64,000 nucleotides of DNA from Atriophallophorus winterbourni. Its lineage: Eukaryota; Platyhelminthes; Trematoda; Plagiorchiida; Microphallidae. The stretch lies in NCBI GenBank assembly GCA_013407085.1, contig JACCGJ010013456.1, positions 1 through 64,000 on the forward strand, written 5' to 3'. The translations under genes were made by a program, and so were the position numbers. The notes under the pieces were generated by a model. It was not told the origin of the DNA. It saw only the letters and a program-made list of their open reading frames with translations, and searched no databases. Shown here piece after piece: positions 13,687-59,005 of this stretch (position 1 is the first letter of the stretch; each line of letters opens with the position of its first letter).

Positions 13687-13795
13687 CAAGCGCATGCGGA
13701 TCCTGATCTTACTGTCGCTACATGATGAGTGCAAACAGCACGAAACTGGTCGTGGGGTGTGTGTGAGGGGAAAGCATGCAAATGAATATTTTAGA
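13687..13795 (+). repeat. ribozyme repeat family A, copy
   Basis: Carries the family signature: CAAGCGCATGCGGATCCTGA, the hammerhead, a GT-rich run, then GCATGCAAATGA. Confidence 0.8.
13716..13757 (+). ncRNA. hammerhead ribozyme, family A copy
   Basis: CGCTAC / core ATGATGA (first C lost) / GTGC AAACA GCAC (perfect stem II) / GAAA / stem III AC-TG-GT / cleavage C at 13751 / GTGGGG. Helix I pairs C:G, A:T, T:G, C:G, G:G mismatch, C:G. The changed first core base probably reduces activity. Confidence 0.75.
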
Positions 13796-16140
13796 AATCT
13801 GTTCAATTTTGGCCAATTAATAAAGTAAACATTTCAATAGTTGCAAATTCAATTAACCTCTTAAAACAATTTCGATATGTCCTACTTGAAATTATTCAGC
13901 AAGTGCAGGAATAGTAAAACAGTGATAATATCATTAAATTGAACAATATCGAATTTGATTCAATCGAATTTCTGAGTGATGATGTCAAACTTTCTACAAG
14001 GACTGAGAAAAAATCAGACATTTATTATAATTTATTGCAAGGATACGTTTGAAGGAAAAACGACAGATGTATAAATTTGACCTTTAAAACACTAAATGTA
14101 AGATATGAATATTGCGGAAGGCCAAAATAGCATAGTGTCGATACATAAAGACCTGTGGATATTAGCAACCACCAAGTTACGTTTGATGGCATTGGACTCA
14201 ACAATAATCCAAACATACACGAAAGAGTTACCTATCAGTCTCTATTTTAGTCAGATTTGTTATAACACAGCCGGTGGAGAAATGTTTTGAGGTTTTCTTC
14301 TTTTTATTTTGAAAACACACAATATTTTGAAAACAACACAATTTTAACCCGCTTGTATAAAGTGGATGAGAGTCTAAAAACCTCAAATAAACTTTGATAT
14401 TTCTTGCTAATTTAATGAGCGTATAAGAAGAGCAAACCACGTGGATAGCGAAATTCTCTTAGAACGATGAAACAATTCCACCCGAGCTTGTCAAAATCGG
14501 TAATATAACGCAAGGAAGCTTCTGTACAAGTCGATATGTGTGATACAGATCCCGCTACACTGCATCAATCACCCTTAAATATCACGAGAAAAGTAATTGT
14601 CAAACATTTTATAAAAGCGTCCACATAATTTAACAACGTGAACCCTATATGGACAGAACAACCGTGGATATGATCTATTCAAACCTCGCTTCGGTGATAA
14701 AACGGTTTGTACATCTAATACATCTTTATTCGCCATTACACCGGAACGCTCAAATGCACATTTTGATCCAGTGAATCCTACAGGAGCATAAAATAAGTGT
14801 ATGTTTCTAACATCAAAGTAATGTGTTGCTCACATCCCCCGAAATTCAAGTATACACTTGATTACCTCTATAATCTGTTTCAATCGCAACAAACCGAAAT
14901 TAACGACGTAGTGATATACTAACTCGAATGTAAAAAATAATTGTAGTAAAATGAATTTAAGCTACTCCTTAACAGAATTCGCTCAGAATTGCTTTAAAAT
15001 ATGGGAATGATTCATACAGTGCGGGATTTATTCAGCACCATTGTTTTTGACCAACAAGAACCCAAAATTCAAGAGTGTGAAATATTTCAATGTTAAAAGA
15101 GGAAAGGTAATTTTAGCGATAGCAGACGGAACTAATAAAAGTTGATTTATCATGCAACATATGTGAAATGAGAAATCACTTTAGACCTAATCCACAAGAG
15201 AGTTGGCGAAATGCATGCAAAAACAAGCATGCTTAATTCAGAATCTATGGTGTAATGATGATGAATTGATATTTGGGTGTTACAAATGTTGCATACGGTA
15301 CCAGGCAAATTTCGCTTTTCAATTTTCTACATTATCGTCCGGTTAAAGAGTCGACCGCCACCAACAAAGAAAAAATAATTTTTTGTTATTTTGCATCCAA
15401 TAACAGGTCTATCTCATCAATTCAGGTTCACATTTGTCTTCTGGAACTGAGAACCACTTATGCGAATAGTAAATTCGATAGCTGTGCTATTTGTTTAAGA
15501 AAAGTTGAACGTTTTTCATAAAAGGAATTAATAAATAAAAACAGGCTGAGCAGTTAGAACGCGAAACCGATTGTTGTATGGGATGTTAACAAACTATGTA
15601 TACATTTAGTTGAAATTACTTCACAAAAAAGGTAGCAGGTGAATGCAACGAATTATCGTTTGTTTTGACGTGCATTATATACCCGTAAAATCTTTTTTAC
15701 AAGCATTTTATTCACACACACACACACCGCGAGTGAGTTTGTGCTGTTTGCATTCAGTACAGTACAATCGAGACCCCTATGCCTTGAAACAATGACGCAA
15801 TTATCAAAAAAGTTGGAACATTGATTCCGCTGTTGGATAATTCGCATAATTACATAATCAGGCTGATCATCTCAGGCTCCGAAGTTTACACGTTATATAC
15901 AAGATTTTTGATTTTTCGCACATGAGTCTCCATCTGTTTACTACAGCTGACGGCTAGCAAGCATTTAAATAGCATTATTGATCAACTCTTTTCGGTATCT
16001 ATTTTAGGATAATACAATTTTTGGAACTGCAGACTGAAAAAGACGTTTCGAATATAAAACATGCTCGTTTCGTTTCACCTCCCATTCTTACGCTAACCTT
16101 TATGACCATATAAATTTACTGGAATTAAAAGTTAATTAAA
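13796..16140. other. no gene seen; one repeat scrap and a CA microsatellite
   Basis: At 14818-14845 there is a family B scrap (TGTTGCTCACATCCCCCGAA, minus orientation). At 15713-15727 a CA dinucleotide run. The remainder holds short unsupported open frames. Confidence 0.5.
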
Positions 16141-16142
16141 TC

Positions 16143-16245
16143 AATCGCATGCGGATCCTGATCCTATTGTCTCTACCTGATGAGTGCAAACAGCACGAAA
16201 CCGGTAGTGGGGTGTGTGTGACGGAAAAGCATGCACATGGATATT
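16143..16245 (+). repeat. ribozyme repeat family A, copy
   Basis: CAATCGCATGCGGATCCTGA before and GCATGCACATGG after the hammerhead. Confidence 0.8.
16171..16212 (+). ncRNA. hammerhead ribozyme, family A, apparently intact
   Basis: Helix I CTCTAC (16171-16176) pairs with GTGGGG (16207-16212) through C:G, A:T, T:G, C:G, T:G, C:G. The core CTGATGA, stem II GTGC/GCAC with loop AAACA, and GAAA are all exact. Stem III is A:T and C:G around CG. The cleavage base is A at 16206, an allowed H. Type I with a minimal stem III, as in schistosome and Penelope-like hammerheads. Best intact candidate together with 58915. Confidence 0.88.
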
Positions 16246-17680
16246 TTGGTTAGTTAAATCTTGTTGGGATACATTTTCGAAATATTTGAAACAGAAATAA
16301 GCGATGCATATTTCAAATACATATCACGTTTTGAACTTGTCAATCTGTATATTTCTACTCAGGGTTGATGATGCCGAGTCGGTTAAATGAATCCATGCTC
16401 AGTTGGAAAAATATTACCAACATACCAAATCACCTTAAAAATTTGAAAAATATATATCTTATAGGTGAATATTTTAACACCTAATGATTCTAACTCCTAA
16501 AAACGAAATTTAGCCATCAGAGTTCACTGGTGAAAAATCAAAATTTAGAATAGTGTTAGCCCAAATTAAAGATATTTTCTAGTTTCTTAAAGTATAGTAC
16601 CTAATTTTCAAATGTCAACTAGAAAATTGGGCACAGAAAGAATATTAGCTCGGCTGATAGTCATGCAATTTTTTCCATCAGCTTGCCAAAATTTACTAAT
16701 TCAAAACCGGTAAACGTGTTTTTATTTTCGGTTACTGGAAACATGATTTGACGCATTCCAACATAAAGCGAAAAAATGTGACACTTTCGTGAATTCTCAA
16801 GTAATATTTAACGGTTTGCTAAAATTGGTGGGCTTAAAATTGTTGATGGTATCTTGGGGTGAGATAACTGTGGTTTGTAAATGGAACGAAATTAGTTAGA
16901 CATTTTCCACGACATACAGCATGCATATAATTATGTTGAAATCTACGCTAAAGTTAGTAGAAATCACGCTACTAATGATAGTACTTTATGTTCAAAGCTT
17001 TAGTTCAAATTGATTGAAAAAATACAAGATAATAAAAAAAATTTCAATTTTTTTTCAAAATATGACATGGTCATCTTTGGAAACAGAATGGATACATCGA
17101 TGCAACACGTGTCGCTCGTTTCTGTTACATTAAATGAAAAAACAATACCGACAAATCCATCTTCAATGATTAAAGGATATAAAACTACTTGGTGCGTTTA
17201 AACCAAAATGAAATTTATACTCTTTGTCCATGAATTTAAGGTGGATGTAGCAATCTAACATTAGTTGAGGCGTTGGCATGTAGACGTAAGGTAAACTATT
17301 CAATTCATACAAAATTTCTTCAAAGTGCAAAATTGGATTACCATTTGTGAATTCGAGAATAAATCAACACTTGCAAATTCAAATTTAGCTTCCATATGAC
17401 GACTAAACTAAGTCCCACAATCAGTGCAATGCAGCACCGGTAACTGTTTGAAATATTTTTTCAACAACAAGAAGAAGCCAGATTTTTATATTAATAAGTA
17501 GTATATGACGTTCGAAAAGCAGAACGGAAGCACACAACCGGTTTCGCGGTTGTTTCAGCTCATCAGTTATGCGTATCCGTGACCTGACATGCGAAAGCGG
17601 ATCTGTCGTTGTGCTATACCCAATTCTTTGATAATACGAGGATAAATCGTCATTTTGAAACTGATTATCATTTCTCCACT
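16246..17680. other. no gene seen
   Basis: AT-rich with only short frames (for example 17010-17201) and no motif. Confidence 0.5.
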
Positions 17681-17785
17681 TTCAGAAGCATACTGATCCT
17701 GGTCATACTGACCTTAACCAATGAGTGCAAATCGCACGAAACGGCTCGTAGCTCATGTGTGATGTTGAAGCATGCACATATAATT
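17681..17785 (+). repeat. ribozyme repeat family A, degenerate copy
   Basis: Core reads CCAATGA. Stem II GTGC AAATC GCAC and the GAAA box survive, but the stem III and helix I partners (CGGCTCGTAGC) no longer pair well. Confidence 0.65.
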
Positions 17786-18732
17786 TTTATAAAGTTTCAT
17801 TGTCATTTTTTCATTTCTAACTTTGTGAATGAGGTGTTAACGTTGCCAGATATCTTAGTTATGTTACTAGGGTAAGCAATTCTCGGCTGATTAGTTTTTA
17901 CTTATTAGCATTAAAACCGTCATTCTACGTAAAATAAAAATTCTACGAAATACATCGATATGTATTCAAAGTAACGAAATATGACGGCGAATTTGTTTCA
18001 TAATTTCGCATTATTTATTATTCCTCACAGATGTACATATTTTTTCTTGTATGTAATCTCCAGAGTCATTCTTAGTGGAAATGTAATGGAAAATGGGTGC
18101 CGGTTGATATGTGATCTACACAAGAGATATGATATACTAAAATATGAATTTATTAAATGCAATCATACCTAGCAATATACAGTGTGAATATCTTTTTTAA
18201 AAAGTGACAAAAATATTTTCTTCATTTGAGCGTAGAATTTTCCATGTGATAAAGTTTAAGTGAGATTGCAATATGTGTATTGGAACTCCACTCATCTTTT
18301 CGAGAATAAGAATTTTAGCTTCTTGCAAAGATCGTTCAGTGCTTTGCGTAAGTGTTCCATCTTGATGATGAATATAGCTTTGCTGGTGGTTGACGGTGAA
18401 ATGATAGAAATAGCGATTTAGAGTCGAGTAGGCGGGCCATTCATCTGAGTGGATGACGGAGCATTCTTGAACTTCTCTTAGAATAATCGGTCCTAAAGTA
18501 GCAATTTATTAATATTAAGGTAGATCACCAGCTAAACTAGACACATGTAGGTAGATCACATACTAAACCGACACCGGAAAATGGTTGAGACCAATCGATT
18601 AGTCATTGTCATGCAAATGAAATTCAAAGCAATCGGTAAGACCAGTATTTGGTAACGTTCCGACTCTCAAACAGAAGCTTCGTCAGACCAAGTGTGATAG
18701 TCAGAATAGGGCACGTAATTTAATATAACTTC
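17786..18732. other. no gene seen
   Basis: Only short AT-rich frames. Confidence 0.5.
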
Positions 18733-18850
18733 AAGGCTCACTGAACCTAAACTTACTGTTTCCACCTGATGTCGGCCAACAGCCAGAGCCCGGTAGTGGA
18801 GTGTAATGTAGGGGAATGTGAGCAACACATCACTTTAAATATCGCTTCAT
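18733..18850 (+). repeat. ribozyme repeat family B, copy with worn hammerhead
   Basis: CAAGGCTCACTGAACCT leads into a hammerhead at 18760-18801: helix I TTCCAC pairs with GTGGAG over six bases (last pair T:G) and stem II GGC/GCC pairs, but the core is CTGATGT and GAAA has become GAGC. Followed by GGGGAATGTGAGCAACAC. Confidence 0.7.
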
Positions 18851-19215: not shown

Positions 19216-19537
19216 GCTACGTTTCCTAAGGGTTCCCACGGTGTCCGGTGTCCAACAACATGTGTTGAACTGAACATCTAGTGTGATTTCGCATGGTGCT
19301 ATGGTGTTTTTTTTAATTTATTCGACTATTGTTGATACCATTTTAACCCACTGATAAGTTTGGGGTAATACATTTGATCACACGTCTTAACATTCGCAAT
19401 CACTTTGTTATTGATCCTGAACATTCCGCATGAAAGATATTCGCGGTCCAAACGATATGATACTTAAAGCAATTATGAAAGTAGTGTAAATACGTGGAAT
19501 GTGTGCAATAAACGATGAAAAATATTAATACTCAGAA
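19216..19537. other. no gene seen
   Basis: AT-rich spacer between the family C copy and a ribozyme repeat. Confidence 0.5.
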
Positions 19538-19645
19538 ACACATGCGGGTCCTGATCCTACTGTCCCTACCTGATGAGTACAAACAGCAATAAACCGGTCG
19601 TGGTGTGTGTGTGTGTGATGGAGATGCATGCAAATGAGCTTTTAT
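19538..19645 (+). repeat. ribozyme repeat family A, copy
   Basis: Hammerhead at 19564-19606: CCCTAC, exact CTGATGA, GTAC AAACA GCAA, TAAA in place of GAAA, stem III AC-CG-GT, cleavage C, GTGGTG. Loss of the G in the second box should inactivate it. Followed by a GT run and GCATGCAAATGAGC. Confidence 0.75.
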
Positions 19646-21328
19646 ACACAGAAACATCGTTTGTCGAAAGTAAGCACAAAATAAAACAATCCATGGAAAT
19701 TAAATAATCTCATGGTACAACAAACAGTCAAAGATTTGGCTGACCAAATTTGAAATACTGTAGATGAAGACGAAAATGGACCTTCAAACTTGACGGCTGA
19801 ATCTCAATTAATTAATCATTAAATATATTCGGAAAAGTGAATCCAAACTGAAGGGAATGATTCATAAAATCTTGATAACAATTCGAGGGATGACTGCTAA
19901 AAATTTTTCAGTGTGAATTGTTATTATCCACACCGATTTGTCATCTTCATTTATGATTGTAAGGTGTTTTTGCCTGGTACACCACAATTGGGGACTACAA
20001 GAACACCTGCGTTGTTTGAATTGACCAAGTCCGAAAGCATACATCATTAGACGTATGAGGACTGAGATATAATGCTTATTCTGTAATTTTGTAATATATT
20101 AAGTTCATTTATTAACTACAGAATATTATTGATTTACAGATTGTTTATCTATTGTTATTAGTATGCAGAACACTATCCCGTTAGTTTGAGTTTTTTCAGA
20201 TGTTCCAATAGCCGCCTCTGATGCGTTTAAAACTGGATAGAATTGTTTGAAAACCGTAGATGAACAACCGAGTTCCACAATATTCGTTCATATGCCTACA
20301 TTTTTAAGAATCGTTATTATTCCTAAAGTGTATAATAGTAGTGAAACAGAATGCAAGCGGCAGATTGTTTACGGTTAGACATTTGCTCGTCACACCAAAA
20401 AAGCGTGAATATGTGTTGTGATGTTACTATCATCCCATACGTAAACATCACTTCCAGTCAGAGATGTTTGGGATCACTATGTAATGAACCGTTGCGATTC
20501 AAGATTTATGGTTGAAAAAACAATTAACTTTACAAAAAACCACTAGGTCAAAATGTAGATAAAATAGATTGTATTATTAATTTGAATGGATTCTGTTGAG
20601 TTGGGTAAGGTAGAGAAACGATGTATTCCTTTGTGGGCACAGTAACAGGGTTAAATTCCATATAAATTCCAGGTTTTGATTTACTTGAAACAAAAGTAGT
20701 GGAGTTTATCAAGCTGGCAGGTAGTGAATTCCTCACGAATTTACAGGAACTAAATAAAATTACCTGCGGAATAAGGGATATCGCACATACAACAATGATT
20801 TAGGATTTTTTTAAACGTTTAAAGATGGAATAAGTGAGAAACAGTATTAAGAACTTTGCAAGCATTACCATTTGTTAGAGAATCCTCAGATTTAGTCGTC
20901 AGAGGCGTTTAACCAAGGGTATATTTTGAAAACCATCAAGAGGCTACTTCACTCGAATAACTATGATTATCGAATCAAAACAGGGTATTCGTTGAAAAGT
21001 TTTTACTGATTACTCTCATCATTAAAATGTGTATGAATGAGAATTTCCTGATGTTTTTTCTGGCTTTTTGAGAACTGTTTATTTGTATTATTTCAAAAAT
21101 ATCCAGATGACCATAGTTTTTCAGGCCTACGTAAGATCCCCATGTAAAATACCATATCACATAATATACCCTCTAAATAAATATTATTTTGCATCGATAT
21201 CAAATGTCTGAACAATTTTCATGCGACATTCCTGCATTAATTCGCCAAGCAGTGGCGTATTTGCACACCTGTTGATAATTGATCATGATGGATTAATAAA
21301 TGCACCTTCCCTTACACAGCTTTTCCAG
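19646..21328. other. no gene seen upstream of first coding exon
   Basis: AT-rich with short unsupported frames. If the 12.2-12.5 kb exon is real, this lies in intron 1 of the host gene. Confidence 0.4.
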
Positions 21329-21340
21329 CTAACCGAAAAA

Positions 21341-21625: not shown

Positions 21626-21727
21626 GTAAGTGAACGCTTGCAATCAGGCAAAACATTGATGCGATCTGTTGTTTCACTTATATCATGAAAACCAATTCTG
21701 ATCCGTTTTTGAAATACTCAATTGCAT

Positions 21728-21795
21728 ACACTTACACACCACAAACGGTTTCTGACTGATTGCGATCATAATGATGAGACAGTAAGATCTGCAAT
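21728..21795 (-). repeat. ribozyme repeat family B, degenerate copy
   Basis: Minus strand: CTTACTGTCTCATCA, then CAGTCAGAAACCGTTTGTGG and TGTGTAAGTG. The GAAAC-stem III-GTGG half survives; the CTGATGA half is lost. Confidence 0.55.
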
Positions 21796-22357
21796 AGATG
21801 ATAATATCTTTATATGTTCCCCATGATGTGTTCGCCACGTATAAGTGGGAAACAAAGTGGTTCTTGAATGTCAATGTTAATCCAATTGGCACAGCAACTC
21901 TGCGGATGATCTATCCAAAAGGTGGATCTAAAAAGACCAATCAAATCAATGAAAATAACCATTATCGGAGTGTTCACATCCCCCGTATCGATAGAATCAA
22001 GATACAAGTACAATAGCAACTGACCAATCAGGATAAATTTGGTTTATAAAATTTAGCAAAATAATAAAACATAGTAAATCGAAAATGTTTGATCTTGACA
22101 TCTCTCAATGAAATTTTTAGTATCCCTGATGTCAATTATAAAAAAACAATTATCAGCGAAATTGAAACTGTGTTCTGGCCAATACTATCTAAGTCTGGGA
22201 ACCATGTCTTGAACAAACGTATCCCGCTTCTACATATGTCAATTCAAGGCGTTTATAGAGCTCATTATTATGAAAATCTGTAGTTGAAATTTTGATGTAT
22301 GAAAACTATTTTACAAAGGCATTCTACTATAGATTTATTTAATAATTTACCATTGTT

Positions 22358-22450
22358 TCAAGGCTCACTGAACCTGATCTTACTGCCTCATTCTTGATGA
22401 GAGTAAACAGCTAGAAAATGGTTGCGGTATATAACCACTTCATAACACTC
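22358..22450 (+). repeat. ribozyme repeat family B, degenerate copy
   Basis: TTTCAAGGCTCACTGAACCT then core TTGATGA at 22394, AAACAGCTA, GAAAA, TGGTTGCGG. The core's first base and stem II are altered. Confidence 0.65.
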
Positions 22451-23049
22451 ATTATATAACGCTTAAACCAAGGAGATTATAACATTTTCGACAGTTTTGA
22501 ATACCAACAAAAGCAGTGTCGCCTAATCGATTGTACGTAACATATCTTCTATGAATAAAAAGGCAAAGTGAATTTACCTTTACATACAAAATACTCAATA
22601 GTATCTATTTCCGTGTAGATAAGTTATGCTGACATCCAACTTTAGCAAGAAGCAATATCATGTCTAGATGCCGGATATCACACACTTCAAGCAAAATTTT
22701 GAACCTATTTTATTCAAGGGAATTCTCTCTGAGTATAAATTATAAAATCAGGACGTTTAGTTATTTTCAAAAGAAAACTTGATACTCATGTGGAAGTTTA
22801 TGCCAAACTAAACGCATATACATATAAAACTCTGCAGTAGCCCAAACCTGAATATCATATAAACATATTATTTTTTCAACGTGTAAGTACAGTTAAATCA
22901 ATAGTTTTTCGAACTCTATTCTTGAATTTTGAATAAAAATATGATTTGGGCCAATACAACTTGTTTTGACGATATCAAACGTAACTTTCATCAGTGAAAC
23001 TAAGAAACACATGTCTACTGCATAATATTCGAAAATTTCGTAATGTGCT

Positions 23050-23255
23050 TTAAGGGTAAAAAAGCTCATTTGCATGCATCTCCATCACGCACACAAACCA
23101 CGAACGGTTTCATGCTGTTTTGCACAAATCAGGTAGGGACAGAAGGATCAGGATCCGCATGCGTTTGATACAGTGGAATAATGGTAAACAATTTGCGCTT
23201 GTATGCCACTGTTGGGTTAGGTTGGTGCGACCAACCTGTTCAATCACATGAGCCA
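23050..23255 (-). repeat. ribozyme repeat family A, minus copy of an inverted pair
   Basis: Minus strand ends in GCATGCAAATGAGC; its hammerhead (about 23138-23094) has helix I CCCTAC, core CTGATTT, stem II GTGC with GCAT, GAAA, AC-CG-TT, CGTGG. Upstream part includes AACAGTGGCATACAAGCGC and the GGTTGGTCGCACC block. Core mutated. Confidence 0.75.
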
Positions 23256-23257
23256 CC

Positions 23258-23440
23258 AGTCATGTGAGTGCAAACAGCACGAAACCGGGCGTGGTTTTGA
23301 TGTGTGATGGAGATGCAAGCAAATGAGCTTTTTATTCATGGTCATGGGTTTTAAACCCAGTCTACATGAGTGCGACGCATGTGATTGAACAGGTTGGTCG
23401 TAGCAAACTTACCTAACAATGACATACAAGCGCAACGCGT
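23258..23440 (+). repeat. ribozyme repeat family A, plus copy of an inverted pair
   Basis: Begins abruptly at a worn core CATGTGA (23261), then exact GTGC AAACA GCAC GAAA CCGG, a GT-rich run, GCAAGCAAATGAGC, the block TTCATGGTCATGGGTTTTAA, and GATTGAACAGGTTGGTCG. It abuts the minus copy with opposite orientation, so transcripts could fold into a long hairpin through the shared GGTTGGTCG blocks. Confidence 0.75.
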
Positions 23441-24989
23441 TTAAGGGCATTTTGCAATATTGCAACATCGTGATTTCATTTGCGTTATCTTGAAGCTGAT
23501 CAAGCGTTATTTTGGTTCAACACATCCAACAAGTAATACATCATCATCATTATAAGTATTTATTTTATAGCTGCAGAAATGTCCTCAATTAATTATTTAG
23601 CAATTCGAGTAAGGTAAATGATCAATTGTCTTACATTTCCAACAATCAAAGCATTCGATTAAACCTGAGAAATAAGTAGACTTGATCAGAGACTATAGAT
23701 TTAAGATGTCGAAAACCAGTTAGGTAATGTTTTCATTAGGTATTAAATAGTTATCTCTATTCTGTTGATGCTTATAATTTCCTGCATGCTCAAAATATTA
23801 AAGGTTTGATCTCGTAGCAGCATTCTGTAGTTAAAATGTATAGATAATTGATCTTTGAGACATTTTCTCGTATGATACTAAGTATTGCTGTTGTATGTCC
23901 GATGAGACAAAACCATCTAAGCGTTACAAGACTTGTTCAACAAGCCAATACGCCAGAGAAACAACATCTTGTGAATGAATGGTGTTTGCGTCAGGTCAAG
24001 GTGACAACGACGATGAATGTTATTAAGGTAAATTCTACTGGTGGTTCGAGTGTGCAAAGCAAAATGTGTAGTCAAACTTTCCCACGAATAACCCGAATCT
24101 TACACGTGGTGCTTTGAAGAATAGGAGAAAAAATAAAACCTGTGATTGCTATTAGCCAGATTTTTTTGTTTCAATAAAACGCAAAAGTGCACCAAAACTG
24201 AAAACAAAATGCTGGAAATCAGGTATGAAAGACAAATATCATTTACACGGTTAAAATATTTGAAAACAAGTGCCGACAACGCAAAATAAGTAACATTTAA
24301 ATTCAATAAGGGATAATTTCTATAACTTTCCTAATTATGTAATTATTAATTTCGTAAGAATACTCAGATGATTATGAAAATTTCGTATGATTACAAAATG
24401 TAGGCAAATCAGTCGAAATTCACCGGAACAGAATAAAAGCTTACGTTCGGCGAACTCAAAAGTTTGAATGAGCACTGCATTGATGGTCTGATGTGTGTGT
24501 GATGGAAATGCATTTAGAGGAACAGTTTTAATCCAACTCTCGTTTCTGAATTTAAATGAGCAATATTACTACTGAATATGTTTAAGTAGCGTACATTGAA
24601 TATTTATTTAAATGATCAGCGTGTTACAAACCGAAGTCAATTGTCCGGTCTTTCTTAGTGTTTAACCTCAACAAATTTATGACAAATATATTGGCTTGTA
24701 TTTTATATCAACTCGAAGTAAAGTATACAAAGTTCTTATTGATGGCTCTGTTCGATAAAGGTTGAACATATTTTTCGCAATATTATCTGTATTGGATTCA
24801 ACAAATCACTAATTTACCTTAAAAAGCCAACACTTTAGTACACCAAAGTATTACGGTTTGGATGAAAATGTTAAGACGTACATAATGAACGATTAGAGTG
24901 TATTTAAATTACGGCTCACGAATGATGATCTTTTGTATATGATTCTACAAGTTCGTTTTAAATAACGCCATGCACCTAGAGCCCACCCG

Positions 24990-43955: not shown

Positions 43956-43997
43956 CTCTCCCTGATGAGTGCAAACAGAATGAAACCAGTTGCGGGT
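43956..43997 (+). ncRNA. hammerhead ribozyme, trimer unit 3
   Basis: CTCTCC / exact CTGATGA / GTGC AAACA GAAT / exact GAAA / AC-CA-GT / cleavage T 43991 / GCGGGT. Both boxes are exact; stem II keeps only its outer pairs, and helix I has one mismatch. Weak activity is possible. Confidence 0.7.
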
Positions 43998-44884
43998 TGT
44001 ATGTTGGATGGAAATGCATGTAATTCAGCTTTTTGTCAAAGATTTTCATACTGTTCATCAAACATTTGAATGCAAGGTAACATAAACAAATTATAATTTA
44101 CCTTTGAATAGCCAGGATTTGCGCTTAATTAAAACAGCTTCCAGTATATAAGATTGACGATCAAGTAATACATTCCTCCCGGACAAATGTTGATGGATTT
44201 TGTCATATAAAACGGTGTTTATACCCACATAATTAAACAAAATTAATTTACATTGGGACTAGATACTTTTGAAAATGAACGTTGGGTTTTATATAGAAGA
44301 ATATTCATTGATTCAACTATGTGGAATTTCTATCGATCGCAGGCAAGACTACTAGGCAGACTTGTAAATTGTTGCGAAACATATGTTTTACAAATCAAGT
44401 ATTTGACAGACATACATGAAATTGAAACGGAACTTACGGGAGTGGTGCAGCGAAATTACCGAATTTAATTGTTCAACACATTTCTTGCGATAGGATTATC
44501 CCAAATGCGATGATAAACGAAGGAAGAAAGAGATAATACTTATTGAAAATCAACAGCGAAAATGAGAATTCTTACGCTTTACTGCAAGATTTTAGTTGTA
44601 ATCGTTTCAGGACAATTTGTATGGATAGAAATGTTTTCTAAATACAACGGCAGAAAACATAAAACCGCCGGTAGGCAAACTACCTGGATTATAAATCATT
44701 CAATTTCAAAATAAACTAAAAAGATTCTACTAGACATTTCCAAAAATTGTGCGTAATTTAATTTAAACTAACCCTCGGCATTCAATATATATTTTTATTT
44801 ACAATCTGTTGATGCGTGTGATTATGAATACATATAGTCACTAATCATGAATTTTTCAAAATAATCTTGGCCAAATAAATTTAT

Positions 44885-45065
44885 ACACGTATGCCACCGT
44901 TGCATAGGGTTCTTACAAAGAACCACGGTATTTAGATACAAAATCACAAAGTGATTCTTGGGCTCGAGGCGTTTTTAAGAGACGAATGTATTATGGTGGT
45001 TACATCCAGAAACCGGTTGTGGTGTCTAAGGGATGGGATGTGAGCATCAAAATATATTAATGTTG
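44885..45065 (+). repeat. ribozyme repeat family B, core-deleted copy
   Basis: TATGCCACCGTTGCATAGGG, TTCTTACAAAGAACCACGG, AAATCACAAAGTGATTC, then CCAGAAACCGGTTGTGGTG and GGGATGTGAGCATC. The CTGATGA half of the hammerhead is missing. Confidence 0.65.
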
Positions 45066-46099
45066 GGTAAATGATTTTGTTATTTTAATAGTATATCGAA
45101 CACATTCTAGAATAATTATTTATTTTCTAGTATGCCATTCTGCCATAATCGATCTTATGTTAAACTATACATAAAGGTCTTAATACTACTCCATAAAATA
45201 TTCGTTTCTTGATCTTAATGCAGTAGATCATCGCAGTACCTATTAAAATATACCTTTGGTTTTATCTAAATTTAATTGAATATTTGCAATGCCTTGTTAT
45301 TCAAATTTGTAATTAACTAAGTAACAGGAATTATTTTTGAGGAACTTTTGTTACTTCAGTCCAAGTAGAAAGTTTGGAAATGACAGTTTTGAAATAATCT
45401 AAATAATATTGAGCCCGAAAATTTGCGTCTCCTACTCCAATACCAATTAAATGTCAAGAAAGAATAAATAAAGAATAATGCTAAGCTAGAATTGACTAAA
45501 ATGATTGTTTGATGGAACTTGTCTGGTCTACTACCAAAAATAAAATCTATTTCATTTTGGCTTCCATATTCTTGTTGAAACAGCCATACAGAACGAACGC
45601 TGATAATTGCAAGCGTATCCTTAAAAATGATATTCGGCATATTTACGGCCCTGAAATTTTACAGTAAACAACTAAATTATGTGCGCCTCGATATAGATTA
45701 TACAAAATAAAATCGACAACAACCTGCGAACGCGTGCCGAATCCTTCGACTGGAATCAACCTTACAATGACTGAATCACTAAGCACATGCATCAAGATAT
45801 ACCCCAGAGACCCATACGGTTTAGACATTATGTTGACACACTAATGTCCATTGTTAGGTGAATTATTATAGCCGAAGAATAAATTCCAAATCAAGCTATA
45901 AATTGCTGCGCGATTAAACATGATTGTCGAAATATCATTTAATGATTCGCGGGAAATGATTTTCCTCGAGAAAATTCTCACGTATATAGTGCAAAAACGT
46001 ATACACGAGAGTCATTATTAAATAATGGTTTTTACAGAGATACATGATGCTTAAATAGAAAAAACGATTCCTAGTTTAGCACCCAAAGGTCCTACGAAC

Positions 46100-46240
46100 G
46101 ACCAGCGTATTGTGGTGCTTACTTCTCCCGTACATACAAACCACAAGCGGTTTTTGGATGTCTGTCGTCATCAGGTGGACACCGTGAGTTCAGGTTCCAT
46201 GAGCCTCAAAATAGTGGTAAATTGGTAAACAAAGGTATAC
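46100..46240 (-). repeat. ribozyme repeat family B, minus copy of an inverted pair
   Basis: Hammerhead on the minus strand at 46180-46139: GTCCAC, exact CTGATGA, CGACAGACATCCA, AAAAACCGCTT, GTGG. The GAAA box lost its G. Helix I pairs CCAC with GTGG. Confidence 0.7.
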
Positions 46241-46254
46241 AAAGGTAAACCACA

Positions 46255-46390
46255 AGCTACTGTTCCACGGTTAACTGAAACTACTTTTACTTTTCTTACC
46301 TGATATAAGCCAAAACGGCCAGAAACCGAGTGTGGAGTGCAGGAAATGTGAATGTGAACACCATAATATATTGGTGGTTTATAGTACAAA
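46255..46390 (+). repeat. ribozyme repeat family B, plus copy of an inverted pair
   Basis: CTGATAT at 46300, stem II AAGCC AAAAC GGCC, GAAACCGAGT, GTGGAG, then GTGAACACCATAATATATTG. Core mutated and an extra base sits at stem III. Confidence 0.65.
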
Positions 46391-46761
46391 TTTCTGAAAA
46401 AGATTGATGTAGGCTAGATCATATTTTACAATTGTATTTATTGTTCACTCAGACCTTTCAAATGCTATTTAGACTAAGCGTTCATTTTATATTATTTTCT
46501 GATGTGATTGCATTTCTACCTTAAAAGTAACAGATGCTGATTCCGTAAAAAAATCAAAAATGTATACGAGGTATTCATTCCAACATTTCTAAATAGCTTG
46601 GATATTCTTAATGCAGACTCTGAATTTTGACATGTAAAATAATGGTACCAGTTGATGAACGGCGATTTTGTATAACTAATTATCCGGCACAGAAACGTGA
46701 AGTGAAAATACATAATAGGAAACCTACGTATTTGAAAACGTTCTCTTCAGGTAATAAAGCT

Positions 46762-46815
46762 ACTTTGCATGCATTTTCATCACACACACACACCATGACC
46801 GGTTTCGTGAGGTAA
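46762..46815 (-). repeat. ribozyme repeat family A, fragment cut inside the ribozyme
   Basis: Minus strand starts CACGAAACCGGTCATGGTG, then a GT run and GATGAAAATGCATGCAAAG. Everything 5' of the GAAA box is absent. Confidence 0.7.
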
Positions 46816-49800
46816 TTCATGAATGTCTAAGAAACATCGATTGAAAGTTTTAAATTATGTAGATTCAAAGTTAGAACACGTCGACCAGATTCAATTTTTT
46901 ATAATTCGGTAACTTTGAACTGGAGTACTTTCAAACAAAGCTGTTGATTGAGATCACATAATTCAGCTGAGCAGTATTGAAATTGTGTTTTGATAATTTG
47001 AGTTCACGTTAGTTGCACTGGATTTTCATTTAGTGAACATAAAAAAGTTTTCACTAGAAAATTAGTTGTAGATTACAAATCAAAATTATTTTCAAAATCT
47101 AACAAAATCTGTTAGCGTAATTGTTTGATTTGTCATTTATGAAAACCCTTGATCTGAGGATATGTTTATTCTCTGGATGACTCGTGGTATGCGATTTTGA
47201 CCAATCCTCAACTAAACCGCCTTCTGTCTACAACGATTCATTGTGCCTTACCCAGCGGTAATTTCAAATTATGTGTCAGATTTAATTCTCGGAATGCATC
47301 AGCGATGCCCTTAAAATTTGGCTAAGTTTTCCACAATAGTTAACCATGACATTTGGAATTTTAGCATCGTACGTGATTGTACTACACGTATAAATGCGAC
47401 CTCATTATCGACCATTAGGCAAGAGAGCAAAAACGGGTAATCTGCCGGAGTATGGACAACGGTATTTTTAGAAATTAGAAAGGAGATGTATTTGTAATGA
47501 CATTTATCTAATGAGATGACTTTTTGTGGTACAATGGCTCACTATCTCAAATGATCGGTATCTAAGAATGGCAGTTAGCTCGATTTTCCAAAGATAAAGC
47601 CTCACAAATATTATGAAACAAAATGTTGCTGTGAATTTTTGTTTGATTGTGCAACTCTAAAAGTAGTTGATAAACAATGGCATCCCAAATACGTTACGGA
47701 ATCGATTGTTTTTAGAAAGCTTTATTGTAATGTACAGAAGTTTAATGCAAATAACTTTAACCGAACTAAAAACAAATTTACAGAATGGCGCACACTTCTT
47801 ATTGATGACTGTTGTAAAACAAAATATCGTTTCTATTTTTATTCAAAAATCTCTAAAAATTTCGATTTTGAGACCTAGATAATATCATGCGAGCGACATT
47901 AGTTTGCACTAACGAGAACGTAATTGATTACTAATCTTGAGATGGAAATTACTTGCGAAATTGATTAAGGTATCGAGTTCTTTCATACTATAATGTTGAC
48001 CGTTTGTACTATTCTAATGTCGACATCATTTTTTAACGTGTGACTGTAATGATGTGTTGTAGGCTAAGCAAAATTGAGACCCAACGAAGCTTTAGAATTT
48101 CTTAATCGAACGTTGTTACAGCCTGTGGTCTTTGGAACATAGGCTTCCAGTTTCTGGCCCGCATGCGTGGTCTATTGTGTTTTGCCTAATTGCCATCTGC
48201 AGACAGAATGATTCAATGGCGGGTTACTTGGTACGATAAAATTTAGCATCTTGACCTTGAAAGTCTATTAACGTAACCGAATTGAAAGAAAAAAGACCAG
48301 ATTCATAAACTTACATGATCTCTAACAATATGCAGTGATTAAAATGACTACAGTTGTCAAAATTGAGGAAGAATCACGTTTGCCGCATTAATGTTAGGCA
48401 ATACGCAGATGAACTCAGATTAGTCCTGGCAGAAATTAACAGGGCGACAATAATAAATTATCGCTGACATTCGAAGTTTGCGGATATTAATAACGATCAT
48501 GTTGTGTGGATGTATCGATAGAGTGAAAATTTCAATCATGTCGATAATACCTCTTTTCAATTTTTCCTGGTAACTCGCGTGCTAATAAAACTGCAAGAGA
48601 TGGAGAAACCTGTCGAACATTGATATTATTTAATCACGTGAAACTTGTAACAAATTAGTTTAAAAATTCTATTACAATTGATGGGATGAAAACATCACTG
48701 CACATATATTTGTTCACATCTATGGATTAGCGTGGATGCATAATGCGAAATGTGCCCCCACTGCTCTTTAATTTTGGTCTGCCAAGCTGATACAGATTAC
48801 AAAGACTTCTTGGAATATACCGGCGTAAACTTTTCAGATGAATATGGAGCAGTTATATTCCGACTGTTTAAACGCAATGGAGAGGTTTGAATTGATAAAT
48901 TCGACCTTTGAGTTGATTAATCAGATTTAACTCTTTACGTCAGTGAAACTATAACGTTCAGTGAACAAGCTCCTATACGCTCACCATCTAGGCTTAGGAT
49001 AAATCCTGTGTGTGCTAATATAAACTCTCCACAGACAGTATTATTTACTTATCCAATAATGCTATGCTTAAAGTTGAATTGAATTTATAATATGAAAATC
49101 CAACAATCTTTTTATTATCAACTGTGTTCTAGTTTCGTGCACAATAAACGTGCAAATTGTGCTATAATCTTTCAATTTTGACAACAACGACTTCCTGACA
49201 CAATAGCACTTAATACACCTTTTTTCCCAGTATCGATTCAGTAAACATTTGACAATCCTATCTATCATCGCACCGAGGAAACATTCAGCATCGCAAAGTG
49301 CAAATTCTCAATACCGGACATTTTGTAAATATGAAAATCGTAGAGGGCAGAAATCTATGCCAAGACATGAACAAACAATTCTCAACGGTAAAATGCAAAG
49401 TGTCAATCTTGATTGAGCGTTGTGGAACTATGTGGACCTATTAATTTGGAATTAAATTCGGGTATCGAAATTCACCAAATTTTCTCGAGCAATTAGTCCG
49501 CGACACCATGGTTAAATTGCAGGTGTAATTCATCAAATTAATTAATCGATAACCTTAACTAGATAAATATCAATCATTAATCTTGATTGTCATGGTAGAT
49601 TGAGGAATGCGTTATAAATATCAAATTATATTTTATTAAAGTGTAGAAAAATGTAAAATATCTAGATAAAATATCCACCTCACGAGCTTGTTTGTAGCAC
49701 GAGGAAATTTTCAACCAAGATTGTCGGAATCAATTCTTCACTACAATAAAATTAACTAGCGTTTTCTTGCTTTGAATGTTTGACCGTACTGATCTAATTT

Positions 49801-49959
49801 AAAAGAATGTGAATAATGATTTGTTTAAGCACGATTTGTACTCCTTTAAACAATATTTCCCGGTTTTAACCTACTTAGTTTTGTTTACGGTAAACTCATG
49901 TTCCTTATTTCCCAGCGAATTGAGCACTAATTTAAATGGTTCAATTGGTACAACAAATC

Positions 49960-50130
49960 CCAATTTGCATTGGTTCCCAACAAAAACACCCTACGACCGA
50001 TTTTGTGTTGGTTTTGCGTATTAGATAGGATCAGGATCCACATGCCACAAAACAGCGGAAAAACGGTAAAAATCGTTTTGAACTGCTTGGAATCTGTTTG
50101 TTAATAGCGGCTCTACCAAAATATTTCTGT
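49960..50130 (-). repeat. ribozyme repeat family A, minus copy of an inverted pair
   Basis: Minus strand: GGCATGTGGATCCTGATCCT, then a worn hammerhead CTAATACGC, AAAACCAACACAAAATCGGTC, GTAGGG and an ATGCAAATTGG tail. Confidence 0.6.
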
Positions 50131-50137
50131 CGCATGT

Positions 50138-50350
50138 GCTCACATACAAGCGCATGGGGATCTATTCCATCCCTACATGATGAGTCCAAACAGAATGAAA
50201 TCCCGGTCTTTGGGTGTGCGCAAATCATTTACATGCAAATACGGATATTTTTGTTCAAACTCTTGAGTTTAATCCATCTATATGTGTGTGGTCATATGCG
50301 ATTGAACAAGCTATTTGTGAAACCCTCGCCTAACGGTGGCTTACAAGTTT
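50138..50350 (+). repeat. ribozyme repeat family A, plus copy of an inverted pair
   Basis: Hammerhead 50171-50217: CCCTAC, ATGATGA, GTCC AAACA GAAT, exact GAAA, then TCCCGGTC. Followed by TACATGCAAAT, TATGTGTGTGGTCATATGCG, ATTGAACAAGCTATTTGTG, AACGGTGGCTTACAAG. First core base lost as in the 13.7 kb copy. Confidence 0.7.
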
Positions 50351-53180: not shown

Positions 53181-53847
53181 GTAACGTTTTAATTCTTAGA
53201 TATGATGATAATTTGCTACATCTATCTACTCATCTATTTGCTTTTCACTACATTATGCATCCCACTGTAAGTTAGAATGCACATTTAAATTTATATAATT
53301 AATAAAGTTTTGAAAAAAACATTACTGTTTAGCACGTCGCATTCAATCCTTAATGCTGTAAGCTCAGTTTACAGATTTAATGATCTCCAGCATAATGCGT
53401 GTATCAATATGATATTCCTCTCGAGGATGCAATTCATCAATATTCATAAAATTATTTGAAAATATCGTTGTTCATTTCAATTTATCAATCTGTTCCATGG
53501 GATCATTTGGTGTGACGTACGCTTAACCAGATAACGTTAACATCAAATTTACAACATGTAATTGCAGCAACATATGCCAGTTAATTCATTTAAGAGCAGC
53601 TATTGTTTGATTTACCCATAACACATTCGTGTACCCATCAATTAACAGATACAGCAACATTGCAAGCGAAAATAGATTGAATCTCAGTGCATATTTTCCA
53701 TCTGTCTCATAAGTGATCTCGATCAGATTTTTTGTTCCATCCCGTGGGTCTACCCCCAACTTGACGTATGTTGGCACATGTTTGAACAGATTAATCTTGC
53801 TAGCATTATCCAACATCTAATCGCAAGTTCAAACGTTGTATACTCTT

Positions 53848-53940
53848 GATCCGCTGTTTTATGCACTCGGATCTTCACCCTCATGAGCACAAAAGGTACG
53901 AAATTGACCGTGGTGTCTGCTGGAAATGTATGTCTATTTA
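53848..53940 (+). repeat. ribozyme repeat family A, degenerate copy
   Basis: CTGTTTTATGCACTCGGATC, TCATGAGCACAAAAGGTAC, GAAATTGACCGTGGTGTC. GAAA and the GTGG strand survive. Confidence 0.5.
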
Positions 53941-54309
53941 ATATATTGATATCAATCCCGCCAATGACAAACTTTACGCATTTTCTGGCTATTTTCCGTA
54001 ATCGAGTGGAGAAAATAGATATTATTTTAATCGGATCTTGTAGCTCACTTACGTTTTGAAGTCACTGCTAAATAGAGTTCCTAGAAAGAACCACAATATT
54101 CAATTACTAAACATACATTACGCTGGCTCTAACGTTCAACTTTGTTCACCACATAGTTATGTTACAACTACAATTTAATGAAAAAATTGCAGAATAGTAT
54201 TCGATTATATTGGTAAACATTGAGTAATAGCGCTTGACATATGTCAGTATGCTTAGGGATAAAACTTTGTCACTTTTCACGTAATGAAACCTGCATATTG
54301 GAACTAAAA

Positions 54310-54482
54310 CATACCTGTTCATTTGCTTGCATTTCCATCACACACACGACCCCTTTCGTAATGTTTGCACTAATCAGGTAGAGAAAGTAGGATAATGATC
54401 CGCATGCGCTTGAAATAGTGGCAGAATGGAAAATAAGGTGCGCTTGTATGCCAACGTTGGATAAAGTTGGTACACCCAACCT
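54310..54482 (-). repeat. ribozyme repeat family A, minus copy
   Basis: Hammerhead on the minus strand (about 54383-54338): TCTCTAC, CTGATTA, GTGC AAACA TTAC, GAAA, GGGGTC, GTGTGTG. The upstream monomer part reads GGTTGGGTGTACCAAC, CGTTGGCATACAAGCGCACC and TCAAGCGCATGCGGATC. Confidence 0.7.
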
Positions 54483-54839
54483 TAAAATAACATGTTTCCT
54501 ATTATCAGAATCGTCAAATTAATGCACAAAAATCAATCAATCTGTGCTTAGAAAAAAAATGGTTGCTGACCTAATTAAATGTTTATTCTCACAAAATATA
54601 ATAAATATCCATTAGGAATCATTTCGCCTTTCAATTTTCACACATACATATCATTCAATTAAAAATTAACGCTAGTAGCTATTTCACCAGATTTGAATTA
54701 TCTACATAATTTACTTGAATAGATGTATAAATTTATAATAGCCAATCCAATTTAATCTATATTCGCATTCAGATCGATTATTGACAGTAATCAGTGCACG
54801 CTAGTATAAATTTCTCAGATGAAGAATGTTTAATATTAT

Positions 54840-55105
54840 ACTGTGGTGCTCTCACTCCGATCACTTACACAGCTAAACCGGTTTCTGGCTGTATGCCGTC
54901 ATTAGGTGGAGACAAGTATTGGAGGTTCGGAAAACCTTGAAATAGTGATAGCGGTAAACAGAGGTAGACTTGTATACCACTGGTAAATAGGGTTCTTACA
55001 AAAAATCACGAGGTTCAAATAGAATGATAAAATGATTCCAAGTCAAGCACTTAAGGTGCTTATAAATGACCAATGTGTTGTGGTGCTCACATCATATATA
55101 TTGTT
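54840..55105 (-). repeat. ribozyme repeat family B, full minus monomer
   Basis: From 55105 downward: GTGAGCACCACAACACATTG, TAAGCACCTTAAGTGCTTGA, GTAAGAACCCTATTTACCAG, CGCTATCACTATTTCAAGG, then the hammerhead at 54911-54870: CTCCAC, CTAATGA, GGC ATACA GCC, exact GAAA, AC-CG-GT, T. Stem II pairs; the 3' helix I strand has drifted. Confidence 0.75.
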
Positions 55106-55721: not shown

Positions 55722-55850
55722 CATTTATCCACTGTTTCAATGATCCCTGAACCTGATCTTACTGTCTCCACCTGATGACGGCAAACAGACAGAAACCGGT
55801 AGTAGTATGTAAGGGTTGGGGATGTGAGCACCATAATATATTTGAATATT
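55722..55850 (+). repeat. ribozyme repeat family B, well-preserved copy
   Basis: TACCATTTATCCACTGTTTC, CCTGAACCTGATCTTACTG, hammerhead, then GTAAGGG and GGGGATGTGAGCACC. Sense to the host gene, inside intron 7. Confidence 0.75.
55766..55807 (+). ncRNA. hammerhead ribozyme, family B, both boxes intact
   Basis: CTCCAC / exact CTGATGA / CGGC AAACA GACA / exact GAAA / AC-CG-GT / cleavage A 55801 / GTAGTA. Stem II is reduced and helix I has one mismatch, so activity would be low, but the core is complete. Confidence 0.7.
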
Positions 55851-57376: not shown

Positions 57377-57499
57377 CTTCGTGAAGCATTCATCGAGCAA
57401 CGTCGAGAAATCCAACGTTTGCGTAAGCAGTTGGCCGAGAAAGACATGTTAATCAATCAATTGCAAGGTGATATCCGTCTCTACGAGCCTTGGCGATGA
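57377..57499 (+). CDS. host gene terminal exon 8 (residues 566-605): C-terminal leucine zipper
   Basis: Acceptor ATTCGCAAACAG ends at 57376; stop TGA at 57497-57499. Encodes LREAFIEQRREIQRLRKQLA then EKDMLINQLQGDIRLYEPWR. A regular heptad coil: a positions F5, I12, L19, I26, I33; d positions Q8, L15, K22, L29, Y36 of this exon, so a parallel dimeric coiled coil is likely. The ending EPWR is unusual and may be a functional tail. The coil resembles in style the dimerisation zippers of cGMP-dependent kinases and their myosin-phosphatase partners, but I have no motif that proves kinship. Confidence 0.88.
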   Translation, partial: LREAFIEQRREIQRLRKQLAEKDMLINQLQGDIRLYEPWR

Positions 57500-58789
57500 A
57501 GTCACAAGCAGTAGTTTTTAACAATGCAACCACCCGAATGTGAACTTGTCTAATCATTGAATCACGCGCGCATTGTGTTTTTGAGGAGCGGAACTAGTTT
57601 GTGACCGCCTGTGTTTATCCACAAATTCCTTCACAGACTGTTAACCGGATAGTTTTGATTTATCGGAAGGAAATTAAGTTGCTTAAAATGCTTTCATAAA
57701 GAAAATTTCAATCAATATATCTCGTTATGTTTTATGGTTTATGGGGAGAAAGAATAGAATAGACATCAATTAACCTTATTGGTTTTTTCTCCACGCAACA
57801 CTCCGACAAATCATGTGGATTGTACATAACAAATATTCACGAAGATTTATGGATGCACAATTCTGGGAAGAGATTCAATTATTGAGAAACAAGGTTTTGC
57901 TCGAATATGTTTTATGGCACCTCACTAAACTTATCGGTTAATTATACGATAGATCGAGAGCACAAATATTTTCATCAATATACAATAGATTATTCAAAAA
58001 GATATAACAATAATGATATCTGAAAAAGCATGAGATATATCAAGCTGATGAACCTCATACCGTATAATGGGACACAGATTTTTCACTAAAATATGATTTC
58101 TGGCATATACACTTTGAGGAAAATATGTTTCGAATCGATTACAGAAATTCAAAGTGATTCTTTAGTCATTTTTCAACTGGTGTCGTATTCCTCAAGCACC
58201 TTACTTACAACAATAACCATGAGGAATCTGTTACAAGCCTGGACACAACGTATAAGAAAAAGTTTAGCATAAACTGAACTCTTGTAAATCGTAGCTACAT
58301 AAGGGTTGTTTCGTCAAGTTGAAAAGTATCACAGTTGTTTATTTTCGATGTTTGGCTGAAAGTGAATTTTACACAAAAACGGGATGTTCCATATTCAAAC
58401 TTACACCGTTAGTAATATCTTTTCCATCCCTGGAATAATTTATTCCGACTTTTAAATATCAGCTAGCTGAGTGATCACAGTTGTAGCCTGGCTATCCCAC
58501 AATAAACACTTATTTCTATCCCGGGCTAGCGAATTTTATGTGAAAATCCACTCCCAGAAGTTGTGAGATTTTCATTAATTTTAGCTATTTAAAAAATCTT
58601 TTTGATTAAGAGCGAGTGAATTCAGATGTTGCCCATAAATCCTTACAAATATAAATCTACCATAACCCAGTGATGATGGGAAATTCACTATATTTATACG
58701 CTGTATTCAGATTTAAAGCAAAATGTTTTTTTTTCATCCATAACTTTGAAATTTGAATCCAAATTGATTTCTTGCAAATAACATGGTTC
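57500..58789 (+). other. 3' untranslated region and downstream flank of the host gene
   Basis: The first 150 bases keep a higher GC content and probably belong to the 3' UTR. A CATAAAG at 57696 and an AATAAA near 58502 are the only poly(A)-signal-like sites; neither can be assigned. A 43-codon frame from 57812 contains FWEEIQLLRNKVLLEYV but has no supporting splice site. Confidence 0.4.
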
Positions 58790-59005
58790 TAATCTTGGTA
58801 CGACCAACCTGTTGAATCACGTGTCCAAACACATATAGATATGGTGTAAAGAATAACTACAACGTGTTCACCATTCTTCACTGTTTCAATAGCATGCGGA
58901 TCCTGATCCTACCGTCCTACCTGATGAGTTCAAACAGAACGAAACCGGTCGTGGTGTGTGTGTGTGTGTGATGGAAATGCATGCAAATGAACTTTTTGGT
59001 TCAGA
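58790..59005 (+). repeat. ribozyme repeat family A, nearly full monomer
   Basis: GGTACGACCAACCTGTTGAA (inverted relative to the usual GGTTGGTCG block), TTCACTGTTTCAATAGCATG, CGGATCCTGATCCTACCG, the hammerhead, a GT run at 58951-58971, and GATGGAAATGCATGCAAATG. Confidence 0.85.
58915..58956 (+). ncRNA. hammerhead ribozyme, family A, apparently intact, with covariant stem II
   Basis: TCCTAC / exact CTGATGA (58921-58927) / GTTC AAACA GAAC / exact GAAA (58941-58944) / AC-CG-GT / cleavage C 58950 / GTGGTG. Stem II is GTTC/GAAC here but GTGC/GCAC in other copies: both strands changed together. Helix I pairs C:G, A:T, T:G, C:G, then a C:T mismatch and T:G. With 16171 this is the copy I would expect to cleave. 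Confidence 0.9.

Follow-up and report, generated by a model that had tools for sequence, protein, structure and literature searches.

The 64,000-nucleotide (nt) stretch of DNA analysed here, referred to as the window (positions 1 to 64,000 of contig JACCGJ010013456.1 in the Atriophallophorus winterbourni assembly GCA_013407085.1, ~36% GC), contains two sister families of a short repeat with a type I hammerhead ribozyme core, which we call families A and B. They share the window with a hammerhead repeat of a different kind (family C), with LINE-like (long interspersed nuclear element) reverse transcriptase (RT) fragments, and with other direct and inverted repeats, and all conclusions below rest on this one window. 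The consensus of both families has the sequences CUGAUGA and GAAA, an NUH motif, three helices, and ends that lie within helix I.

A preliminary description of this DNA had reported a superfamily of hammerhead repeats on both strands, and that signal is far above chance. A descriptor of the exact catalytic core found 4 sites, where 60 dinucleotide shuffles averaged 0.017 (maximum 1); three of the 4 are in family A (16177, 43962 and 58921), which are related copies and hence not independent events, and one, at 17566 on the minus strand, is more like family C. With up to one core mismatch there were 9 sites (one of them, at 13607, outside the repeats) versus 0.32 (maximum 2; 60 shuffles), and with up to two mismatches 12 sites versus 3.6 (maximum 8; 30 shuffles), at which point the signal fades. 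The covariance searches that had been proposed gave two different answers: Rfam produced no match in the window at gathering thresholds, while a custom covariance model (CM), trained on 26 hand-placed copies (15 A, 11 B), returned 39 matches at E<=1 (GC 0.27-0.49) and 32 loci at E<=0.002, comprising the 26 training copies and 6 outside the training set. Below threshold, the Rfam model Hammerhead_1 had four matches, all on family A copies: 13716-13757 (the best, at 29.9 bits against a cutoff of 34, E 0.0025), 58915-58956 (25.9 bits), 16171-16212 (24.5 bits) and 50171-50214 (21.5 bits, E 1.5). The range first given for the repeats, 13687-59005, was too narrow, with copies beyond it at 5979-6091 on the minus strand and 6970-7064 on the plus strand. 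Structured-pattern scans of viral contigs and of genome contigs gave 0 matches each, in collections from which records near the genome of the window were possibly excluded.

Core, loop II and loop III do not differ at any of their 21 columns between the majority consensuses of A and B, and elsewhere agreement is 50 of 78 (Fisher p=6e-4, leaving aside gapped columns and those lacking a 40% majority). The proposal that A and B are sister families is supported, and the ribozyme core was left unchanged while they diverged. Helix III reads A-CCGG-U in both consensuses and is more aptly described as a palindromic CCGG tetraloop closed by a single A-U pair than as the stem of two base pairs with a two-base loop that had been proposed. 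Helix II is GUGC/GCAC in A and CGGC/GCCA in B, with pair 2 compensated (U-A to G-C), and the pair at 10.1-11.1 is G-C in the A consensus and C.A in 7/11 B copies, position 11.1 being A in 11/11 of them, so that, contrary to the earlier description, the two families do not have the same architecture throughout. An unpaired 10.1-11.1 is expected to weaken hammerhead cleavage, and family B amplified despite its C.A. The flanks do differ in sequence between the families, as first noted, and yet they are themselves structural: what looked like different flanks makes up the 5' arm of a distal helix I with covarying pairs, GCATGC/GCATGC in A (with the second arm downstream of the ribozyme) and GCTCAC/GTGAGC in B. 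Three of the six distal consensus pairs are altered on both sides with pairing retained (from A to B: A-U to U-A, U-A to C-G, G-C to A-U), and it is on all three changed pairs appearing compensatory that the argument from this helix rests. In the alignment 80.4% of distal helix I cells are paired, and in the whole 16-pair structure, which was drawn by hand from consensus folds and complementarity and counted afterwards, the figure is 77.3%, versus 19-36% after the partners were slid 1-3 columns out of register; cells with a two-sided change numbered 34 versus 16.7 in shuffles, and covariation was 0.264 versus 0.175. That the copies are chance hammerhead-like motifs within an unrelated repeat would agree with the empty Rfam result at gathering threshold, but it is scarcely credible given the excess of exact-core sites over the 0.017 expected and the covarying stems. 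More short hairpins lie upstream of the ribozyme, at ~43800-43880 (A) and at 6104-6192, 44873-44961 and 54956-55024 (B), formed by GGTTGG/CCAACC in A and GGTTCG/CGAACC in B, as well as TGGGTTTTAAACCCA and AATCACTTAGTGATT; by inspection, they too apparently differ in a compensatory way between families.

Most copies are dead, and nearly all are decayed. All of the catalytic bases (CUGAUGA, GAAA, U16.1 and H17) are kept in 5 of 26 aligned copies (A16, A43c, A58, B6m and B55), and two of the 26, A16 and A58, also retain a full four-pair helix II (G-C or A-U/U-A). Of the earlier statement that more than twenty copies share one order of elements, the homology stands, with 32 loci recovered by the CM, and the implied intactness does not. 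A16 (16137-16249 plus; CM 119 bits) is a solo insertion with an intact core at 16171-16212 and a predicted cleavage after A. A58 (58795-59003; CM 111.2 bits) consists of a plus-strand copy at 58856-59003, head-to-head with a minus-strand fragment at 58845-58795, and its intact ribozyme (58915-58956 plus) has an exact core and a GUC site. In family B, both B6m (5979-6091 minus; CM 87.3 bits) and B55 (55732-55844 plus; CM 108 bits) have intact catalytic bases together with C.A at 10.1-11.1 and a second helix II mismatch. Pairwise identities average 71% among A copies, 63% among B copies and 54% across the two families, values that mark the copies as old insertions.

Four features overlooked in the preliminary description are target-site duplications, a common 3' end, the length of the tandem unit, and head-to-head pairs. 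Twelve of 30 profile matches, all in family A, end at model positions 283-297, which puts the 3' end common to most family A copies 44-58 nt past the cleavage site, just beyond the distal stem. The densest +-8 window held 13/30 ends, compared with a maximum that averaged 5.9 and never exceeded 11 over 2000 uniform draws, and with 6/30 for the 5' starts, which are scattered. Target-site duplications of 11-13 bp flank 4 of 26 copies, all of them solo insertions of 103-107 bp: A13 (13682-13794 plus, insertion 13686-13792; core C3 altered to give ATGATGA; CM 122.8 bits), with AGAAATCTGTT matching at 11/11 positions; A16, with GTTAATTAAATC and GTTAGTTAAATC (11/12); A19 (19530-19646 plus; G12 altered, TAAA; CM 99.7 bits), with ATACTCAGAAACA and ATACACAGAAACA (12/13); and B18 (18726-18838 plus; CM 92.6 bits), with AATATAACTTCA and AATATCGCTTCA (10/12). 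The downstream copy of the duplication starts 12-14 nt past the 3' arm of distal helix I, and the upstream copy stops somewhere from 6 nt short of the 5' arm to 1 nt inside it. Both ends of a solo insertion thus fall beyond the ribozyme and are not set by its cleavage site. The same duplication criterion was matched by 80/4000 random placements (P 1.7e-3) and 8/650 mismatched copy pairs (P 2.8e-4), and a stricter score gave p 0.002-0.006 in three of the four cases. If the repeats were instead satellite DNA spread by recombination, carrying a relic hammerhead with no current role, their age and mostly dead cores would be natural; the dispersed single copies with flanking duplications, the common 3' end, the compensatory changes in helix I and the core shared unchanged by A and B all speak against this, and we consider it highly improbable. 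A candidate RNA polymerase III terminator or octamer promoter at the 3' end was also tried and rejected, as ATGCAAAT plus TTTTT occurs only in A and the B consensus reads GTGAGCACCACA.

Most copies are single or partial, but there is one array at 43462-44036 on the plus strand (A43), where three hammerhead domains are arranged in tandem with family A units of 225 bp (43532-43756) and 235 bp (43757-43991), a possible flanking duplication AAGATTTT (p 0.044, uncorrected), and no open reading frame (ORF) of at least 120 amino acids (aa) between the hammerheads of the 43.5-44.0 kb array. Among pairs of copies within 60 bp of each other, 6 are head-to-head, 2 tandem and 1 tail-to-tail. The head-to-head loci include A23 (23056-23443, minus 23265-23056 and plus 23265-23443, located with nhmmer, with TTTAAGGG on both outer sides), A50 (49952-50347, minus 50148-49955 and plus 50145-50347), B42 (42160-42455, minus 42346-42160 and plus 42342-42451) and B46 (46095-46385, hammerhead domains at 46214-46102 minus and 46260-46374 plus), and the tail-to-tail arrangement is at 53723-54111, between the plus-strand copy A53 and a minus-strand copy at 53939-54111, where both copies are weak (CM E 0.001 and 0.0018). 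A figure of 10.3% for coverage of the window is an overestimate, since the B profile included flanks, and is not relied upon.

We think it rather likely that A and B are non-autonomous non-LTR (long terminal repeat) retroelements of the metazoan retrozyme kind, copied by internally started target-primed reverse transcription. The ~230 bp A unit carries its type I hammerhead, in which helix III is all but absent, at the end of a long helix I shaped like a rod; tandem copies would be transcribed, and adjacent hammerheads would cut as a double hammerhead to release monomeric, possibly circular, RNA. An RT acting in trans, most likely Penelope-like and otherwise from a LINE, would then prime complementary DNA at a nick in the target, starting on the structured hammerhead domain from an internal position past the ribozyme and not from the cut end. 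The array would come from a multimeric or circular template, the solo copies from early termination by the RT, and the head-to-head pairs from priming on both strands of the target. Target-primed reverse transcription from an internal site fits because the 3' end is within the unit, the 5' ends vary, and duplications, an array and head-to-head pairs are present. A Penelope-like helper is favoured on two grounds. For a purified Penelope-like element (PMC11167929), reverse transcription begins at an internal position downstream of the hammerhead, both strands are cut and extended, AT-rich DNA is favoured, and insertion in vitro is unaffected by hammerhead mutations; and the authors of the retrozyme survey name Penelope-like elements as a strong candidate for the helper, with LINEs among the alternatives (PMC7229834).

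A LINE-driven version, which overlaps with the retrozyme account just given, would have the repeats moved by LINE machinery with ordinary priming at the 3' end and would treat the head-to-head pairs as twin-priming inversions. We hold it to be a real possibility, if clearly the less probable one: a LINE-like RT is present in the window at 2-1006 on the minus strand (RVT_1 E 3e-28), LINE target priming fits both the 11-13 bp duplications and the varied 5' ends, and 23056-23443, with its TTTAAGGG flanks, resembles a single inverted insertion. However, the array unit continues past the common 3' end, which is therefore internal to the multimer, and both members of the B42, B46 and A50 pairs hold a whole hammerhead domain, which argues against twin priming because a single-unit RNA would not give them; no poly-A tail was noticed at the copies, and tails shared with LINEs were not searched for. 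It is unlikely, more so than the LINE version, that we are looking at pseudo-LTRs, solo or partial, belonging to an autonomous Penelope-like element with its RT-endonuclease ORF beyond the window, A and B being two subfamilies of the pseudo-LTR and not a separate non-autonomous element. Minimal hammerheads with a vestigial helix III, tandem or partial-tandem pseudo-LTRs, an internal RT start (the 'tail') and two-strand cutting are all Penelope-like traits, and the head-to-head pairs and the common 3' end past the ribozyme would fit; the tandem units of 225-235 bp, however, hold no ORF of at least 120 aa between hammerheads, and a crude motif screen of 634 ORFs from the window (all six frames, minimum length 40 aa) gave two matches only: the LINE-like RT and, within the B46 repeat, an 80-aa ORF (46413-46174 minus) whose GIY-like motif we take for chance.

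A further reading, which we regard as doubtful, would make the hammerhead domain itself the mobile unit, a rod closing on itself from the distal helix I to the vestigial helix III. An RT encoded by the element would recognise this rod and begin copying just outside it, the fold serving as a landing hairpin for the RT and cleavage being dispensable for insertion; the B lineage, amplified with its C.A mismatch at the base of helix II, would then have kept the fold and weakened catalysis.

A number of observations weigh against the retrozyme account or thin its support. Transcription, cleavage, circularisation and the helper are steps that we infer, and the only clear RT of the window is LINE-like, with none recognised as Penelope-like. 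On the structural side, pairs with a two-sided change are ordinary in number (9 versus 7.6 shuffled, and 12 at a slide of -1), as are pair types (25 versus 22.3 in shuffles); the structure was drawn after the consensus, which favours it over the slid versions, and this post hoc origin, together with an A/B split that amounts to one event on the tree, means that the cell counts exaggerate how much independent evidence there is. RNAalifold alone gave no consensus structure for either the family A or the family B alignment. An unconstrained minimum free energy (MFE) co-fold of 42-base dimers starting at 16171 and 58915 predicts the double hammerhead in both cases (2/2), and with window edges derived from the alignment it is the MFE structure in 1 of 26 copies, which makes the outcome sensitive to where the windows are cut. 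MFE z scores are ordinary for whole units (-1.1 and -2.0 as circles, -1.74 linear) and range from -2.9 to +1.7 for hammerhead domains over 12 copies, with antisense similar. As for the insertions, the common 3' end is a matter of family A alone because B tails diverge from the A model, and the remaining 18 of 30 matches comprise 10 B copies, four A copies that end elsewhere (model positions 266, 381, 383 and 396), 1 within the array, 1 fragment and 2 unassigned. The duplication criterion was fixed after all four cases had been seen, the stricter score gives p 0.22 for B18, and no such duplication was found at that place in 22/26 copies; duplications around larger loci are weak, at 3/16 loci with p 0.044 each, uncorrected, 23056-23443 and 43441-44036 among them. 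The orientation excess is a raw count, and 2 of the 6 head-to-head pairs overlap because the B profile had flanks.

Metazoan hammerhead repeats have units of 150-450 bp, and the non-LTR retrozymes among them (Cervera & de la Pena 2020, PMC7229834) are described there as ~170-400 nt long, with a type I hammerhead, short arrays and GC <50%, all of which A and B have likewise; the same account gives duplications of more than 4 bp (11-13 bp in A and B) and includes platyhelminths among the carriers. Unlike those retrozymes, A and B have solo insertions that begin and end outside the ribozyme, and 10.1-11.1 is non-canonical in B. Most invertebrate type I hammerheads have a stable helix III, as summarised in PMC7761336, whereas that of A and B is vestigial and palindromic. 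Newt satellite 2 and the axolotl HHR_Amex1 have, like A and B, a one-pair helix III and a palindromic tetraloop, and the axolotl motifs of this kind are reported to cleave efficiently as dimers (PMC7229834); the newt and axolotl unit is 330-350 bp against ~230 bp in family A, and the likeness drawn is one of structure. The common 3' ends of family A are analogous to the internal RT start past the hammerhead, with both strands cut and extended, that is described for a Penelope-like element (Frangieh 2024, PMC11167929), but A and B, unlike Penelope-like elements, had no RT-GIY-YIG ORF recognised between or beside the repeats in the crude motif screen of the window. Extremely short stem III and minimal hammerheads, as in A and B, also characterise the Schistosoma W-elements W25.2, W26.2 and W27.2 (Stitz 2021, PMC8490949), three tested S. 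mansoni candidates of which cleave in vitro according to that report; W27.2 has a 403 bp unit, and the W-elements are W-chromosome satellites with autosomal copies, a comparison with A and B made by description only. The Sm-alpha and Penelope-like hammerheads cited as precedents at the outset were sensible choices; unlike the Sm-alpha/Sj-alpha type, A and B showed no tRNA-like head by eye. Hammerheads in Penelope-like elements were reportedly described by Cervera and de la Pena in 2014 and by Lunse in 2017.

Because similar-sized type I repeats in many animals and active hammerheads with a short stem III are already known, we file A and B under a known kind of element, of which they are probably new families; no publication in the literature searched was recognised as describing them, and they may be catalogued elsewhere. 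The role of minimal hammerheads in Penelope-like elements and Terminons has been called 'still a mystery' (PMC7761336), and A and B offer a natural comparison, with the fold kept by compensation, the catalytic helix altered in B, and insertion ends outside the ribozyme, so that whether cleavage or the fold is needed for retrotransposition becomes directly testable. If the window, with its 32 loci in 64 kb, is typical, elements of this sort may make up a large share of the genome.

The other family A copies are A15m (15684-15792 minus; heavily decayed, CM 57.3 bits), A17 (17678-17790 plus; core decayed, 79 bits), A29 (29732-29844 plus; core decayed, 96.2 bits), A41 (41649-41762 plus; a single core mismatch, GTAA, 81.8 bits), A54m (54310-54417 minus; 84.4 bits, with its 3' end at the common end point) and A46m (46752-46858 minus), a weak copy outside the CM training set (E 5.5e-4). 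Family B further includes B21m (21709-21802 minus; 61 bits), B22 (22353-22483 plus; 63.6 bits), B45 (44952-45060 plus; decayed, 44.8 bits) and B54m (54833-54945 minus; 84.6 bits), in which core G5 is altered (CTAATGA). Weak plus-strand copies outside the training set lie at 6970-7064 (E 1e-4) and 38287-38386 (E 0.0016).

Family C is represented by two plus-strand copies at 10630-10792 and 11057-11219, 87-88% identical, neither of which is intact (CTGATTA; broken helix II). Rfam Hammerhead_HH9 scores 32.1 bits there (E 3.7e-4), below its cutoff of 52, and the hammerhead of the first copy was placed at 10640-10690. A tRNA-like head with a box-B-like GGTTCAAATCC was seen by eye at ~10990-11060, upstream of the second copy; ARAGORN found no tRNA in the window. 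With this head and a hammerhead, family C presumably resembles the SINE-like (short interspersed nuclear element) repeats of Sm-alpha/Sj-alpha type. The idea that A and B are family C SINEs was dropped, there being no blastn match beyond the hammerhead region. A single hammerhead at 17533-17569 on the minus strand has an exact core, three of four helix II pairs and a palindromic CCGG loop; it is 76% identical to 10649-10694 (E 0.071), is a weak CM match (E 0.19), and probably belongs with family C rather than with A or B. It adjoins A17 in the opposite orientation, and its flanks are family-C-like.

The LINE-like RT at the left of the window occupies two overlapping minus-strand frames, 2-1006 and 955-1410, and runs off the window edge; a protein search with the fragment 955-1407 gave 35 candidates, none at E<=0.001. 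A LINE-like C-terminal fragment at 38942-39427 on the minus strand, searched as 38945-39427, matched 201 proteins at E<=0.001, several with RVT_1, and the 120 matches listed, at 53-72% identity, include proteins of the animals Penaeus, Mobula and Branchiostoma, which points to animal DNA. Five ORFs of the window had no Pfam match at E<=0.01. An inverted pair at 37225-37355 and 37977-38070 carries a degenerate 15/29-bp tandem repeat and is 87% complementary over 94 nt. Direct repeats at 59700-59946 and 60783-61026, ~1080 bp apart, are 98% identical, and at 40538-40773 a 118-bp unit is tandemly duplicated with 99% identity, much younger than the hammerhead repeats.

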